A stretch of 64,000 bases of DNA. Origin: Aedes albopictus (taxonomy: Eukaryota; Arthropoda; Insecta; Diptera; Culicidae). Position numbers and translations under genes: made by a program. The notes below the pieces were generated by a model. The model searched no databases and had not been told where the DNA came from. It worked only from the letters and a program-made list of their open reading frames with translations. Positions 9,994-59,990 of this stretch are shown piece by piece; within the stretch, counting starts at the first letter, position 1, and each line of letters starts with the position of its first letter. The stretch covers positions 431,445,265-431,509,264 of the forward strand of contig NC_085138.1 in NCBI RefSeq assembly GCF_035046485.1, written 5' to 3'.

Positions 9994-10604
9994 TTAAGGA
10001 GAAACATCAGAGAATACAAATATGGCTGCCACAATGGCCGACTTGGACCCCTTCTCACGTTTTCAAGGGCACCAATCTGAAAAATGTGTAAACAAATGCG
10101 CTCGATTTGGAAAAGCTGTTTTTCTTGCAAGTGAGCAAATCCATGATAAACAATAGGACAGATCGGTGAAGTACTAGATTTGTAGTAATGAGCTGAATTT
10201 TAGTATGGTGAGAAGGTAATTTCTCCGTTTCTCCAATGAAATGGTGCAAAAAGAGTGGGTTTTATGATTTCTTGCCTAATTTGATGCTGTTTGAGCAAAA
10301 CTTTGGGCAACAGTGTTGTTGTTTTCTCCATTTCTTGCTACATAAACAACATAGTTATCCAAAGTTTTGCTCAAACAGCATCAAATTAGGCAAAGCATCA
10401 TAATACCCACGCTTTTTGCACCATTTCATTGCAGAAACGGAGAATTGACCTTCTCACCATACTAAAATTCAGCTCATAACTACAAATCTAGTACTACACC
10501 GAACGTGCCCCATTTCGGCTTGGTTCGATGCTTCATTCGTCAGATTTGTGCTTCTAAAGTTTGTATGCAAGATTGCAATGGGATTCCTTGATGCTTCACC
10601 TTAA
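9994..10604. mobile_element. TTAA-flanked MITE (copy A), split by a nested element
   Basis: The ends are TTAAGGAGAAACATC and GATGCTTCACCTTAA, so the terminal repeats are imperfect inverted copies inside a TTAA duplication of piggyBac style. A close relative occurs at 35350-35602. Aligning the two shows that copy A is about 255 bp once the palindromic insertion at 10156-10511 is subtracted. Shared internal text includes ATGGCTGCCACAATGGCC and TCGTCAGATTTGTG. The element is non-coding and non-autonomous. Confidence 0.7.
10156..10511. mobile_element. Palindromic MITE nested in another MITE
   Basis: Long inverted arms of about 100-150 bases (for example GTACTAGATTTGTAGT near 10171 against its complement near 10480-10495, and TTTGATGCTGTTTGAGC near 10279 against 10367) flank a short loop at about 10315-10350. 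It interrupts the outer TTAA element: the uninterrupted relative at 35350-35602 reads straight through from GATAAACAA to CGGCTTG at this point. The precise ends and duplication are ambiguous by a few bases. Confidence 0.7.
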
Positions 10605-11074: not shown

Positions 11075-11159
11075 CCGTTCGCAATGCTGTTTTATTTTGT
11101 ATGGCGAGTTTTAAAATTTTTAAAACTCTCCATACAAAATAAAACAGCATTGCGAACGG
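11075..11159. repeat. Near-perfect 85-bp palindrome (hairpin)
   Basis: The arm beginning CCGTTCGCAATGCTGTTTTA is repeated in inverted orientation, ending in GCGAACGG. Only a few unpaired bases lie at the centre around the AT-rich AAAATTTTTAAAA. Arms are about 40 bases and almost fully complementary. This could be a minimal fold-back transposon or the DNA template of a hairpin RNA. The sequence alone does not decide. Confidence 0.85.
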
Positions 11160-34044: not shown

Positions 34045-34621
34045 CCCCATCAGCGTGGTCGTCCTAGTGTTGGTTGGGACGTTAAACAGAACTGGCACAA
34101 TGGCCCTCCGGCGAGACAGGACTGTTGGCGTAGGCCCAAGCCACCCGTAAAAATCCCCATTGCGAATAACATAGGAGAAAATACGACTCGATACAATCGG
34201 CAAAGACCCACGCGACGAAATAAGGACTACGATTGGAAACTTGGAACATGGAATTGCAAGTCACTAGGTTTCGCAGGATGTGACAGGATAATCTACGACG
34301 AACTACATCCTCGCAACTTCGACATCGTGGCGTTGCAGGAACTTTGTTGGACTGGACAGAAAGTGTGGAAAAGCGGGCATCGAGCGGCTACCTTCTACCA
34401 AAGCTGTGGCACCACCAATGAACTGGGAACAGGATTTATAGTGTTGGGCAAGATGCGACAACGTGTGATCGGGTGGCAGCCGATCAACGCAAGGATGTGC
34501 ATGTTGAGAGTTAAGGGCCGTTTCTTCAACTACAGTATCATCAACGTCCACTGCCCACACGAAGGGAGACCCGATGACGAGAAAGAAGTGATCTACGCGC
34601 AGTTAGAGCAAACATACGATG
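34045..34621 (+). pseudogene. RTE ORF, endonuclease N-terminal half
   Basis: The frame is open from a stop at 34042 and shows the apurinic-endonuclease-like fold start: KLGTWNCKSL with the catalytic Asn at 34252-34254, then FDIVALQELCWTG with the catalytic Glu at 34339-34341, then ELGTGFIV and FNYSIINVHCPHEG. The first in-frame ATG is at 34327, after both motifs, so the real start was further upstream or non-AUG, or the ATG was lost. The frame is cut at EQTYD by the Transib-like insertion. Its continuation begins at 36187 in another register, and the two rejoin in frame if the insertion and one 5-bp duplication are removed. Confidence 0.85.
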
Positions 34622-36181
34622 CACAATGGTCCGAGGACCAACATTAAGTGGAAAAAAATAATAACTCAAAAACCATCCAAGATAGAGTCTTCATGTCTTC
34701 TAGACATTTGCTCGTGAGTCCAAGCCGCGTTATATGCAAAAGTGTCCTAAACGCCAAATCTTAAAATACTTCATATTACAGCACCTAACTTTTTTATTTC
34801 AAAAGATATCGAAATAAAATGTTCTGCAAAGTTGAAGAAGGTAAAAACCCCGACAATTTCAGTAGCAAGTTACGCTATTGCAATTGCAAATAGTGCTTTA
34901 CGGTGCGAAATATGCATCAAAACTTCAATCGTTAAACTTAAATAGTTTTAAAGATTTGGAATAAAGAAAAGTGGCAGCACTTGATTTTGATCGTTGACGA
35001 AATTGACTGACTACGTGTCGCATCCTATCCTAGGATCAAAGGCCTTTCATAATATATGTCAAACATATAAAACTGGACGGTCCACAATTCAATTTAAAAT
35101 TTGCATACGATCACCAGATGCATATATCTGATGAATTAAGAAATCGAAAAACTATAGGGAATTTGTTTTATATTTTTGCTCACTTACACAAAGGAACAAA
35201 ACAAAACAAAAAAGACAACATTGGGTTCATCGCTACTCGAATGTTTAAGATAAGTGATCTTGAAACACGAGTAGATGTTGAACTCGGACATTATGGATGT
35301 CATTTTTCGTGAATTTGATGCCTAAAATACGGTCATAGTCAAATCACATTTAAGGAGAAACTTCAGAGAATACAAACATGGCTGCCACAATGGCCAACTT
35401 GGTCCCCTACTCACGATTTCAAGAGCACCAATCTTGAAAATTCGTGAACAAATGCTCTCGATTTGGAAAAGCTGCCTCTTTTTGAAAGTGAGCAAAGCCA
35501 GGATAAACAAGTGCGGCTTGATTCGATGCTTCGTTCGTCAGATTTGTGCCTCTAAAGTTTGTATGCAAAATTGTAATGGGATTTCTTGATGTTTCACCTT
35601 AAAACGCAAAACAAAAAAAACACCCTCTCCAAAATTTGTTAAAATGCAGTTTTTGTCATACTAGATCCGGTGGTGGGAGAAAATTAAAGATTCACTTGCG
35701 CCTTTTTCAAATGTTACGCTAGAAAAATTGGCTTAAAAAAGTACAAAAATACTTATATATTTTGATAGAAACATCGTACAGCTTTGATGTCTTCTGACGA
35801 AATGTGTATTTTGGCAATATGTACAATTGCTCTGAACATAGTAGGCTTGAAAAAATGATAGTTTTTGACATATGACAAAAAAACCGATTTCAATAAGTTA
35901 TATCTCCTCAGATTGAAGAGATAGAAAAAACTGCTCTTCGAGAAAGTTGTCGGGGGTTTTACCTTCTTCAACTTTGCAGAACATTTTATTTCGATATCTT
36001 TTGAAATAAAAAAGTTAGGTGCTGAAATATGAAGTATTTTAAGATTTGGCGTTTAGGACACTTTTGCATATAACGCGGCTTGGACTCACGAGCAAATGTC
36101 TAGAAGACATGAAGACTCTATCTTGAATGGTTTTTGAGTTATTAATTTTTTCCACTTAATGTTGGTCCTCGGACCATTGTG
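34622..36181. mobile_element. Transib-like non-autonomous element with RSS-like ends
   Basis: The ends are inverted repeats of about 235 bases (34622-34859 and 35943-36181). Each terminus begins CACAATG, the heptamer typical of Transib elements and close to the V(D)J signal heptamer. Then comes a spacer of exactly 23 bases (34629-34651), then an A-rich nonamer-like AAAAAAATA (34652-34660). The right end mirrors this with the same 23-base spacer and AAAAAATTA. The target duplication is CGATG (34617-34621 and 36182-36186), the 5-bp length known for Transib. The interior has no transposase and contains a separate TTAA MITE at 35350-35602. Removal with one CGATG restores the host LINE frame. Confidence 0.8.
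35350..35602. mobile_element. TTAA-flanked MITE (copy B) inside the Transib-like element
   Basis: The ends TTAAGGAGAAACTTC and GATGTTTCACCTTAA and the interior match copy A at 9994-10604, without its nested insertion. At 253 bp this is the complete form of the family in this window. It is the third nesting level: MITE within Transib-like element within RTE LINE. Confidence 0.75.
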
Positions 36182-36186
36182 CGATG

Positions 36187-37175
36187 GTTGCTCGCCGCGT
36201 GACGTGAAAATCGTTGTCGGCGACATGAACGCGCAGGTAGGAAGGGAGGAAATGTTCAGACCGGTAATCGGGCGAAACAGCCTGCACGCCGTATCGAATG
36301 ATAACGGCCAGCGATGCGTAAACTTTGCAGCCTCCCGTGGTATGGTAGTCCGAAGCACCTTCTTCCCCCGCAAAGATATCCACAAAGCCACCTGGAGATC
36401 ACCCGACCATCAAACAGAAAACCAAATCGACCACGTTCTAATCGACGGTAAATTCTTCTCAGATATAACCAACGTCCGCACATACCGCAGTGCGAATATA
36501 GATTCGGATCACTACTTAGTCGCTGTATGCATGCGCTCAAAACTTTCGACAGTTATCACCACGCGTCGAAGTCGAACGCCGCGGCTCAACATCGAGCAAC
36601 TTCGTAACGTAGAAGTGGCTCAAGACTACGCGCAGCAGTTAGCAGTGGCCCTACCAACGGAAGAGCAGCTTGGCACAGCTACACTTGAAGATGGCTGGAG
36701 GGACATCCGATCCGCCATAGGTAGTACCTCGGCTACAGCACTAGGCTTCGCGACTCCGAATCACAGAAACGACTGGTACGACGGCGAATGTGAACAGTTG
36801 AAAAACGAGAAGAATGCAGCATGGGCGAGAATGCTGCAATACCGTACGAGAGCGAATGAGGCACGTTACAAACTGGCGCGGAACAGGCAGAACTCAGTCT
36901 TCCGGATGAAGAAGCGCCAGCAGGAAGAACGAGATCGCGAAGCGATGGAAGAGCTGTACCGCGCTAAGGAAACACGAAAGTTCTACGAGAAGCTGAACCG
37001 CTCGCGCAGAGGCTTTGTGCCACAAGCCGACATGTGCCGAGATAATCACGGTAATATTCCCGTGACAAACACGAGCGAGCGTGAGGTGGTCGAGAGGTGG
37101 CGGCAGCATTACGATGAGCACCTCAATGGCGACGTTGCAAGTACCGAAGGTGGCGTGGTAACAGATCTAGGAGTA
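36187..37175 (+). pseudogene. RTE ORF, endonuclease C-terminal half and linker
   Basis: This continues the endonuclease: DVKIVVGDMNAQVGR with the catalytic GDMN at 36219-36230, TWRSPDHQTENQIDHVLI, and the terminal IDSDHYLV with the catalytic SDH at 36504-36512. A long charged linker rich in R, E and K follows (YRTRANEARYKLARNRQNSVFRMKKRQQEE near 36840-36930), then FYEKLNRSRRGFV and HLNGDV, as in other RTE ORFs. It is uninterrupted for nearly a kilobase until the TA-type MITE at 37176. All catalytic positions I can identify are intact, so the copy was inactivated mainly by insertions. Confidence 0.85.
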
Positions 37176-37432
37176 CACTACCCGTCATAAGTACGGACTC
37201 ACAAAAAATATTGCAACAATATTGCATCATCCTGACTCACCTCGATATCTCCAAAACCTGAGGACTTACAAAGGTGTTATCTTCAGGAAAGTTATTCAGA
37301 AGACCAAAAGCAACAACTTTTCTGAAGGCGGCATTTTTGTAGGTGTTCTGGTTTTAGAGATATCGAGGTGAGTCAGGGTGATGCAATATTGTTGCAATAC
37401 TTTTTGTGAGTCCGTACTTATGACGGGTAGTG
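37176..37432. mobile_element. TA-flanked MITE (257 bp) inside the RTE ORF
   Basis: Nearly perfect terminal inverted repeats of about 85 bases begin CACTACCCGTCATAAGTACG and flank a short loop. TA is duplicated at 37174-37175 and 37433-37434. Removing the element plus one TA (259 bases) puts the upstream endonuclease/linker frame and the downstream RT frame in the same register, reading through DLGV to CAQDERLP. The MITE has no coding capacity of its own. Confidence 0.9.
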
Positions 37433-37434
37433 TA

Positions 37435-38578
37435 TGTGCACAGGACGAAAGACTGCCGGCCCCTGACCTTCAAGAGATTGAGGAGGAGGTTGGCCGGTTG
37501 AAAAACAACAAAGCCGCTGGAGCAGATCAACTACCAAGCGAGCTTCTAAAATACGGTGGAGAAGCACTAGTGAGAGCACTACACTGGGTCATTACCAAGA
37601 TTTGGGAGGAGGTAGTATTACCGGAGGAATGGATGGAAGGTATCGTGTGTCCCATCTACAAAAAGGGCGACAAGTTGGATTGCGGGAACTACCGCGCGAT
37701 CACACTACTGAGCGCTGCCTACAAAATACTCTCTCAAATTTTATGCCGCCGTCTATCACCGATCGCAAGAGAGTTCGTGGGGCAATATCAGGCTGGATTT
37801 ATGGGTGAACGCGCTACAACGGACCAGATGTTCGCCATCCGCCAGGTGTTGCAGAAATGCCGCGAATTCAACGTGCCCACACATCACTTGTTCATCGATT
37901 TCAAATCGGCGTATGATACAATCGATCGAGAACAGCTATGGCAGATTATGCACGAATACGGATTCCCGGATAAACTGATACGGTTGATCAAGGCGACGAT
38001 GGATCGAGTGATGTGCGTAGTTCGAGTATCAGGGACACTCTCGAGTCCCTTCGAATCTCGCAGAGGGTTACGGCAAGGTGATGGTCTTTCGTGCTTGCTG
38101 TTAAACATTGCTTTGGAGGGTGTAATAAGAAGAGCGGGGATAAACACGAGTGGGACGATTTTCACGAAGTCCGTTCAGCTGCTTGGTTTCGCCGATGATA
38201 TTGATATTATTGCTCGTAAATTTGAGACGATGGCGGAAACGTACATCCGACTAAAGAGTGAAGCCAGGCGAATCGTTATTAATGTGTCGAAGACAAAGTA
38301 CATGATGGCAAAGGGCTCCAGGGAGGAATCACCGCGCCCGCCACCCCGAATTCATATCGACGGTGATGAAATCGAGGCGGTTGAAGAATTCGTGTACTTG
38401 GGCTCACTGGTGACCGACGACAACGACACCAGCAGAGAAATTCAGAGGCGCATTGTGGTAGGAAATCGTGCCTACTTTGGACTCCGCAGAACTCTACGAT
38501 CGAATAAAGTTCGCCGTAACACGAAGTTAACCATCTACAAAACGCTGCTTAGACCGGTCGTCCTCTATGAGCACGAAA
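37435..38578 (+). pseudogene. RTE ORF, reverse transcriptase domain
   Basis: RT blocks are intact in order: GRLKNNKAAGADQLPSELLK near 37495, CPIYKKGDKLDCGNYRAITL near 37650, FIDFKSAYDTID near 37891 with the first catalytic Asp at 37897-37899, GLRQGDGLS near 38067, and LGFADDIDII with FADD at 38188-38199. EFVYLGSLVTDD and IYKTLLRPVVLYEHETW follow. The frame is open from the MITE to about 38578, where an indel shifts the remainder (FERKVLRTIYGG) into another frame. The apparent start inside the MITE at 37378 is spurious. The RT core itself shows no missing key residue. Confidence 0.9.
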
Positions 38579-39155
38579 CATGGACCAACGCACCCTTGGA
38601 GTTTTCGAACGGAAGGTGTTGCGTACCATCTACGGCGGAGTGCAGATGGAAGACGGGACTTGGAGAAGGCGAATGAACCACGAGCTGCATCAGCTGCTGG
38701 GAGAACCAACCATCGTCCATACCGCGAAAATCGGGAGGCTACGGTGGGCGGGTCACGTCATCAGGATGTCGGATAGCAACCCGACTAAAATGGTTCTCGA
38801 GAGTCATCCGACCGGTACAAGAAGACGTGGGCGCAGCGAGCTAGGTGGGTCGACCAAGTGGAGGATGATCTGCGGGATGGCATTCACCATTTGCAAAGAG
38901 TTACATTCACTTGCTACTATCTCAGTTCATAAGCATGCTATCAAAAAACAATGTATGGATGACTTTTACCTTGTAGTTTTATCTGAAAGTTTGCTGAATA
39001 TCATAAGGGCCGCACACGCCGTAACTCTTTGCAAATGGTGAATGCCATCCCTGCGCACCCTACGCAGAGTGCGGAACTGGAGACAAACATCCATGGACCG
39101 AGTGGAATGGAGGCGGCTACTATGTACAGCAGAGGCCACCCCGGCCTTAGCCTGA
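38579..39155 (+). pseudogene. RTE ORF, frameshifted C-terminal domain
   Basis: After an indel near 38578 the frame continues as DQRTLGVFERKVLRTIYGG, MNHELHQLLGEPTIVHTAKI and GRLRWAGHVIRMSD. A second, probably one-base, deletion near 38830 shifts it again, giving QRARWVDQVEDDL. The 176-bp MITE at 38875-39050 then interrupts it, and the last 34 codons (LRTLRRVRNWRQ ... RRLLCTAEATPALA, stop at 39153-39155) follow. The C-terminus is that expected of this RTE family. Two point indels and one insertion therefore affect the C-terminal third. Confidence 0.8.
38875..39050. mobile_element. 176-bp MITE inside the RTE C-terminus
   Basis: Perfect 30-base terminal inverted repeats start GGATGGCATTCACCATTTGC. 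The direct duplication is CTGCG (38870-38874 and 39051-39055). An alternative reading with ends GGGATGG gives a 3-bp duplication TGC. Removing it joins DDL to RTLRRVRNW, the expected RTE C-terminal text. It has no coding capacity, and its superfamily is not assigned. Confidence 0.85.
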
Positions 39156-59620: not shown

Positions 59621-59990
59621 CCCTGTGAATGTATCTTATGTGTTTCCTTCAAGGGACTAGTTAAAGACAAACGTCTTGAAATCTCGCTTCAATAGTGCAT
59701 CAGAACTTCAGACGCACAAATCTCAAGAAGAAAGCTTTATACAACAATGCACTTTATTATTCTGTTCTTGCTCACTTGTAATAAGCTTCAAATAATAAGA
59801 TCAGGTGCGCTGGTTTTGTTTACGAAGAGATTTGTGCGCTTGAAATCGCGAATAGGTGCCAAAGTCAGCCATTGTGGTGCCCATTTTGGGATTCTAACAA
59901 GTCTGTCCTTAAGTTACTTCAACAAGTGTTGAATGAAAATTGGAAATGTCCATAGCACGATTATTCACTAATCATTTTCATCTTGATCGT
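59621..59990. other. No gene recognised
   Basis: This is spacer. I see no supported feature. Confidence 0.4.

Follow-up and report, generated by a model that had tools for sequence, protein, structure and literature searches.

Background

What kind of transposon occupies positions 34622-36181 of the window (the whole 64,000-nucleotide stretch of Aedes albopictus DNA that was analysed), and does the appearance of its ends say anything about V(D)J recombination? Transib elements share the terminal consensus CACWATG and are the proposed ancestor group of RAG1, the enzyme that cuts antibody genes; the nonamer of the recombination signals (RSS) has the consensus ACAAAAACC. The original prediction took the element for a non-autonomous one of Transib type, and each of its ends for an RSS-like signal consisting of a heptamer, a 23-base spacer and an A-rich tract. 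In our opinion these two components have to be judged separately.

Anatomy of the element

On re-reading the sequence, the outline of this 1560-bp element is as had been described. The heptamer-like end CACAATG lies at 34622-34628 on the forward strand and at 36175-36181 on the reverse strand, and the target-site duplication CGATG is found at 34617-34621 and 36182-36186. When duplication lengths from 1 to 12 were tried, a CAC start was compatible with 5 bp alone; the alternative literal parse, with GCACAATG ends and a 3-bp GAT duplication, is ruled out by other copies of the family. The terminal inverted repeats (34622-34859, forward strand, and 35944-36181, reverse strand) are 238 bp long with five mismatches, at 37, 56, 157, 226 and 236 from the ends, and a repeat search gives 98% identity between the arms. 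With up to three mismatches allowed, the 18-base end occurs twice in the window and in none of 100 shuffles. The 14-base near-palindrome claimed at the heptamer edge is indeed present: it is TGGTCCGAGGACCA, with 6-bp arms around GA, at 34627-34640 and in mirror copy at 36163-36176.

Between the repeats, an internal-deletion junction at 34854-34860 joins family position ~238-240 to ~1262 with a CAA overlap, as judged by eye. It is followed on the forward strand by part of the centre of the usual family copy together with inner right arm (34860-35349) and, past a nested insert, by a further inner part of the right arm (35603-35943); no coding frame was recognised in either segment. The element had been said to lack a transposase, and this agrees with our searches: none of its frames is recognisable as one, a Pfam search with three interior frames gave no match at E<=0.1, and a homologue search with the 99-aa interior frame found nothing. 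Neither Rfam families nor tRNAs were found in the window.

The nested insert (35350-35602) has a body of 245 bp (35354-35598) with inverted ends GGAGAAACTTCA and GGTGAAACATCA, and is flanked by TTAA duplications at 35350-35353 and 35599-35602, which presumably mark it as of piggyBac type. Among the 40 family loci L009-L048, the uninterrupted TTAA site is present in one arm or the other in 38, and a 30-base piece of the insert in none. Two relatives of this TTAA-flanked small element, which has ends near GGWGAAAC, lie elsewhere in the window: at 9994-10604 (88-92% identical to 35350-35602, in two pieces) and at 59661-59912 (68%). Nested within the former is another inverted-repeat element (10163-10502, with 158-bp arms at 91%), and a near-perfect hairpin, whose 42-bp arms are 98% identical and enclose a single base, is found at 11075-11159.

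The family in the Aedes albopictus genome

A search for other copies with the same end, as had been suggested, found the exact 27-base end 205 times in the genome (110 forward and 95 reverse), while the reversed control gave 0; the end string of the family is CACAATGGTCCGAGGACC. We collected 82 loci and dropped L002-L008, which are the same elements as L009-L015. The 75 remaining loci are a non-random sample, consisting of the best-scoring hits and the first 100 of the 205 listed ends, and they represent slightly fewer than 75 elements, since L011 and L033 are one element and so are L031 and L076. Both ends are present in 50 of them.

The duplications of these two-ended loci were tabulated, and 46 of the 50 are exact and 5 bp long: CAATG (13), CATTG (12), CAGTG (7), CACTG (4) and ten others found once each, namely CGATG (the window copy), AAATG, CATTT, CGCTG, CATTC, GAATG, GATTG, CACTC, CAATC and CAATT. 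CANTG thus makes up 36 of the 46, against a background of 0.35% of window positions, and the CGATG of the window copy is one base away from it. In an earlier count of 61 loci with 39 exact sites, C stood at -1 and G at +1 in 16 sites each, so that the outer C and G of the Transib target CCANTGG are weak in this family. The four inexact cases are L017 and L053, which differ by one base, and L034 and L043, which are perhaps mispaired or rearranged (L043 probably mispaired).

The usual copy, which we call form A, is 2356 bp long, with 949-bp arms about 99% alike and a 458-bp centre; its centre (string AAAACCATTGATTTGG) was found in 33 of the 75 loci. Nineteen full copies have a mean pairwise identity of 99.1% and diverge from their majority sequence by 0.47%, which indicates a young family of recent spread. 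The window copy joins family position ~240 to ~1262, and L036 and L038 are other one-arm deletions. Its 238-bp repeats are therefore the scar of a deletion that removed most of one arm: the left one is a remnant of the longer family arm and the right one the outer part of a 949-bp arm. Hence the terminal repeats of about 235 bp, presented as unusually long, are in fact shorter than the 949-1194 bp of the family.

Three loci share a repeat of roughly 990 bp at about 91% identity, perhaps a nested element: L077:996-1983, L078:1645-2632 and L046:1289-2284. In the viral_contigs collection neither the 18-base end nor an inner stretch of 20 bases occurred, and a 20-base end gave 0 in genome_contigs; both are non-mosquito collections, and these results carry little weight.

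Insertion into a LINE

The window copy interrupts a LINE within its endonuclease part. An open frame upstream of the insertion (34045-34621, forward strand) is assigned to the endonuclease by alignment to relatives; the part downstream (36182-37190, forward) has a weak Exo_endo_phos match with E 0.012, below the cut-off; and the reverse transcriptase follows in a different frame (37378-38676, forward; RVT_1, E 4.5e-27). As a whole, 34045-39041 is a degraded culicine LINE with endonuclease and reverse transcriptase in separate frames, several relatives of which carry the annotation craniofacial development protein 2-like.

The protein piece of the LINE downstream of the insertion has 186 relatives, and of the 120 best, 86 cover both sides of the insertion. 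In 43 of the 60 pairs listed, the two matches share a single residue, the upstream one ending and the downstream one beginning on the Asp that GAT encodes in the duplication; alignments of the remaining 17 end before the site or leave a gap. The shared residue at this Asp amounts to an empty site at the protein level. Transposition of the element is thus supported twice, by the duplications at other loci and by the interrupted LINE.

Do the ends resemble recombination signals?

Read literally, the description of the ends stands: CACAATG, 23 bases and an A-rich tract are found on both sides, as AAAAAAATA at 34652-34660 (forward strand) and as AAAAAATTA at 36143-36151. The nonamer match, however, is at chance level. 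The left tract scores 6/9 and the right one 5/9, when 1.95% of window positions reach at least 6/9 and 7.6% at least 5/9, and the majority sequence of the 19 family copies has a 5/9 tract at both ends. Thus ACAAAAACC, as looked for at a spacer of 23 +/-1 in a V(D)J-type 23-RSS, is absent. A better match lies at spacer 37 at both ends (34666-34674, forward strand, with its right-end counterpart at 36129-36137): TCAAAAACC agrees in 8/9, a score that 0.02% of positions reach and that was found with 113 positions tried per end. Spacer 37 is not an RSS-like spacing.

The presence of the same 23-type spacer at both ends had also been pointed out. Any inverted repeat gives equal spacers. Symmetric ends are, moreover, usual for Transib, according to the available part of one source (PMC8289069), and symmetric Transib spacers of 20-22 bp, with 12/23-like ends in some elements, are described in the part available of another (PMC8355894). 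The latter elements, together with the literal heptamer, spacer and A-tract at both ends, would speak for functional 23-type recombination signals, in which the transposase reads heptamer and nonamer alike. In our opinion this is unlikely, given the chance-level nonamer, the better match at spacer 37, and the statement in PMC8289069, as far as it was available, that most Transib families are symmetric and that nonamer similarity in Hztransib of Helicoverpa zea is little or none. At 99% identity, the family copies differ too little for conservation to be informative on the nonamer at spacer 23. We conclude that the resemblance above chance is limited to the heptamer.

A probable assignment to Transib

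The first component of the original prediction fares better. The Transib-type, non-autonomous assignment has come through the comparison of copies, which have the same ends, exact 5-bp duplications and a CANTG target. CAC termini resembling the RSS heptamer, 5-bp duplications and the CCANTGG target are all features of Transib. The likeness of the 7-bp Transib termini to RSS is noted in the available part of PMC4411706. Hopper and transib2, the Transib elements of Drosophila melanogaster, have 5-bp duplications (532 of 533 sites and 7 of 7, respectively) and the target CCANTGG, according to the accessible part of a Drosophila population study (PMC3276498), as our family does. Since ends, duplication length and target agree with Transib, we consider the assignment well supported, though no transposase partner was found, and we give a probability of about 0.87 to the reading that the element belongs to a young Transib-type family of Aedes albopictus, of which it is a non-autonomous copy with a deletion.

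Differences from the known elements exist as well. Autonomous Transibs such as hopper and transib2 encode a transposase, whereas none was found in our family, which has arms of 949-1194 bp. Almost the entire element being inverted repeat is also a property of Foldback-type elements and long-inverted-repeat MITEs, which are non-Transib and have other termini and duplications. The N in the names of TransibN1-N3, families of Anopheles gambiae, stands for non-autonomous. These are likewise Transib families of a mosquito, but they have asymmetric 12/23-like ends, in contrast to the symmetric ones here; the comparison is by description only, from the part available of PMC8355894. Hztransib shares with our family long inverted repeats and a 5-bp duplication (GCTCG; PMC1852546, in part), as well as symmetric ends and the heptamer (PMC8289069, in part). 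It differs in its 3518 bp, in a 489-aa transposase-like protein and in the GC-rich duplication of the one copy described in the available part of PMC1852546. We found no description of our family in the available portions of the literature on Transib, Aedes albopictus and palindromes, nor is it described in the accessible parts of PMC7204232, PMC9033116, PMC3442997, PMC7728395, PMC5199201, PMC11844651 and PMC9435367.

Could the family belong to another superfamily with 5-bp duplications? A hAT5 group with such duplications does exist (PMC12730594, in part), and that a Transib transposase was not recovered is in its favour. To judge by ends and target, it appears very unlikely: CAC...GTG ends and a CANTG target match Drosophila Transib (for the target, the available part of PMC3276498), and the same source gives 8-bp duplications at GTNCGNAC for the hAT element hobo.

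CACTA/EnSpm and Chapaev elements have CAC ends and duplications in the range of 3-4 bp. An element of this kind, with the end-adjoining G/C counted as part of the element, would agree with the literal GAT parse and GCACAATG ends, and CAC ends with 3-bp duplications are given for EnSpm in the available part of PMC12730594. CATTT, CATTC, CAATC and AAATG in other copies refute this, unless those copies are misassembled: the outer G/C varies between copies and so derives from the target, which makes the duplication 5 bp, as in 46 of the 50 two-ended loci, and not 3 or 4.

Search for a transposase partner

Of the family, which has 205 exact ends, 75 loci were read, and none yielded an autonomous Transib with such termini. 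Ten longer frames that lie within or next to nine of the loci (L056, L062, L066, L067, L068, L071, L079, L081 and L082) were scanned with Pfam; no transposase domain appeared in any of the ten, nor was a transposase seen in further frames looked over by eye. Above the cut-off were reverse transcriptase in L067, L071 and L082 and RNase H in L079; L056 has a reverse-transcriptase zinc-binding match just below it, L068 has DUF1759 and PHD, L062 a weak protease match, and three frames are without a match. A RAG1 Pfam model and a RAG1 query found no match in the Aedes albopictus genome, an outcome that is uninformative.

The longer copies of 3.1-3.8 kb (L014, L049, L050, L061, L077 and L078) were weighed as autonomous candidates and rejected. 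No frame of at least 120 residues is listed for L049, L061, L077 or L078, and L050 has one of 164 aa; by inference, the extra DNA of these copies consists of nested or unplaced insertions. According to the part available of PMC4411706, a genome contains a single autonomous Transib copy or a few at most, which would explain why the partner was missed.

Proposed mechanism

The ends, the 5-bp duplications and their target motif, the number of copies, the internal deletion, the TTAA insert and, at the protein level, the empty LINE site were observed; beyond these, we propose the following course for the Transib-type family. The CACAATG ends would be bound by a Transib transposase encoded at another place in the genome, which would probably recognise the terminal ~15-35 bp and not a 12/23 RSS. 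Excision would leave hairpins on the flanking DNA; Hztransib, like RAG, leaves a hairpin there, as described in the available part of PMC6941560. Insertion would then take place at a staggered 5-bp site, preferably CANTG and in this case the CGATG in the LINE. The order of the internal deletion and the TTAA insertion we likewise infer.

A palindromic sister form

In our opinion, a second form of the family (form B) is a more interesting lead than the RSS reading. L066:101-2485 (2385 bp) and L073:101-2487 (2387 bp) are near-perfect palindromes of about 2.39 kb with 1194-bp arms; L054 and L063 retain portions of the two arms as far as 1194, and the one-ended L041 has its centre preserved. The centre string is AAAACCATTGCAATGG: up to the axis it reads AAAACCATTG and beyond it CAATGGTTTT, where form A continues from AAAACCATTG to ATTTGGTGC. 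The axis lies exactly at the edge of the CATTG at family position 1190-1194; the 2356-bp element has just four internal CANTG sites, this one included.

One may speculate that the palindromic form owes its origin to the hairpins that the transposase itself makes, although we consider this more probably wrong than right. A copy would have inserted at the CATTG of 1190-1194 (giving the string AAAACCATTGCACAATGG) and would then have been excised, leaving a hairpin-capped CATTG flank; replication of the capped half-element would yield a perfect palindrome whose two ends are both usable, and this palindrome could then spread. The position of the axis at the CATTG edge fits such an origin, as a post-hoc reading of the sequence, and is no proof of it. 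The plain alternative is a break followed by snap-back replication.

Whatever the origin of the palindrome, its centre has been revised repeatedly. At 13 loci (L043, L047, L051, L052, L053, L055, L059, L061, L064, L071, L074, L075 and L080), 2-9 bases past the axis are kept and the sequence then resumes 20-1047 bases into the opposite arm, as measured from the axis; unmatched bases are found at the junction in L053 (6), L059 (4) and L043 (1). Such counts are biased to copies retaining the axis motif by which they were found. L037, L042, L045 and L046 were excluded, since after 2, 10, 0 and 5 bases past the axis, respectively, they continue into non-family sequence, and L049, L057, L058, L067 and L069 are cut differently. 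L072 was scored as palindromic but retains ~20 nt of the form-A centre and is better regarded as A-derived.

Implications

The RSS resemblance of these ends adds nothing on V(D)J origin beyond the known heptamer. What the family does show is that this mosquito lineage of elements has the Transib target motif CANTG in common with Drosophila; it also provides young natural substrates for a Transib transposase, in high copy number. If the hairpin origin of the palindromes were true, transposons that form hairpins (Transib, RAG, hAT) would in general have this way of giving rise to non-autonomous elements with long inverted repeats; P-nucleotide-like centres would be the mark of this route, and the one-sided deletions at the centre would document how palindromes are naturally repaired in the mosquito germline. 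Forms A and B set side by side, within one family, a stable asymmetric centre and a palindromic centre that is repeatedly revised.
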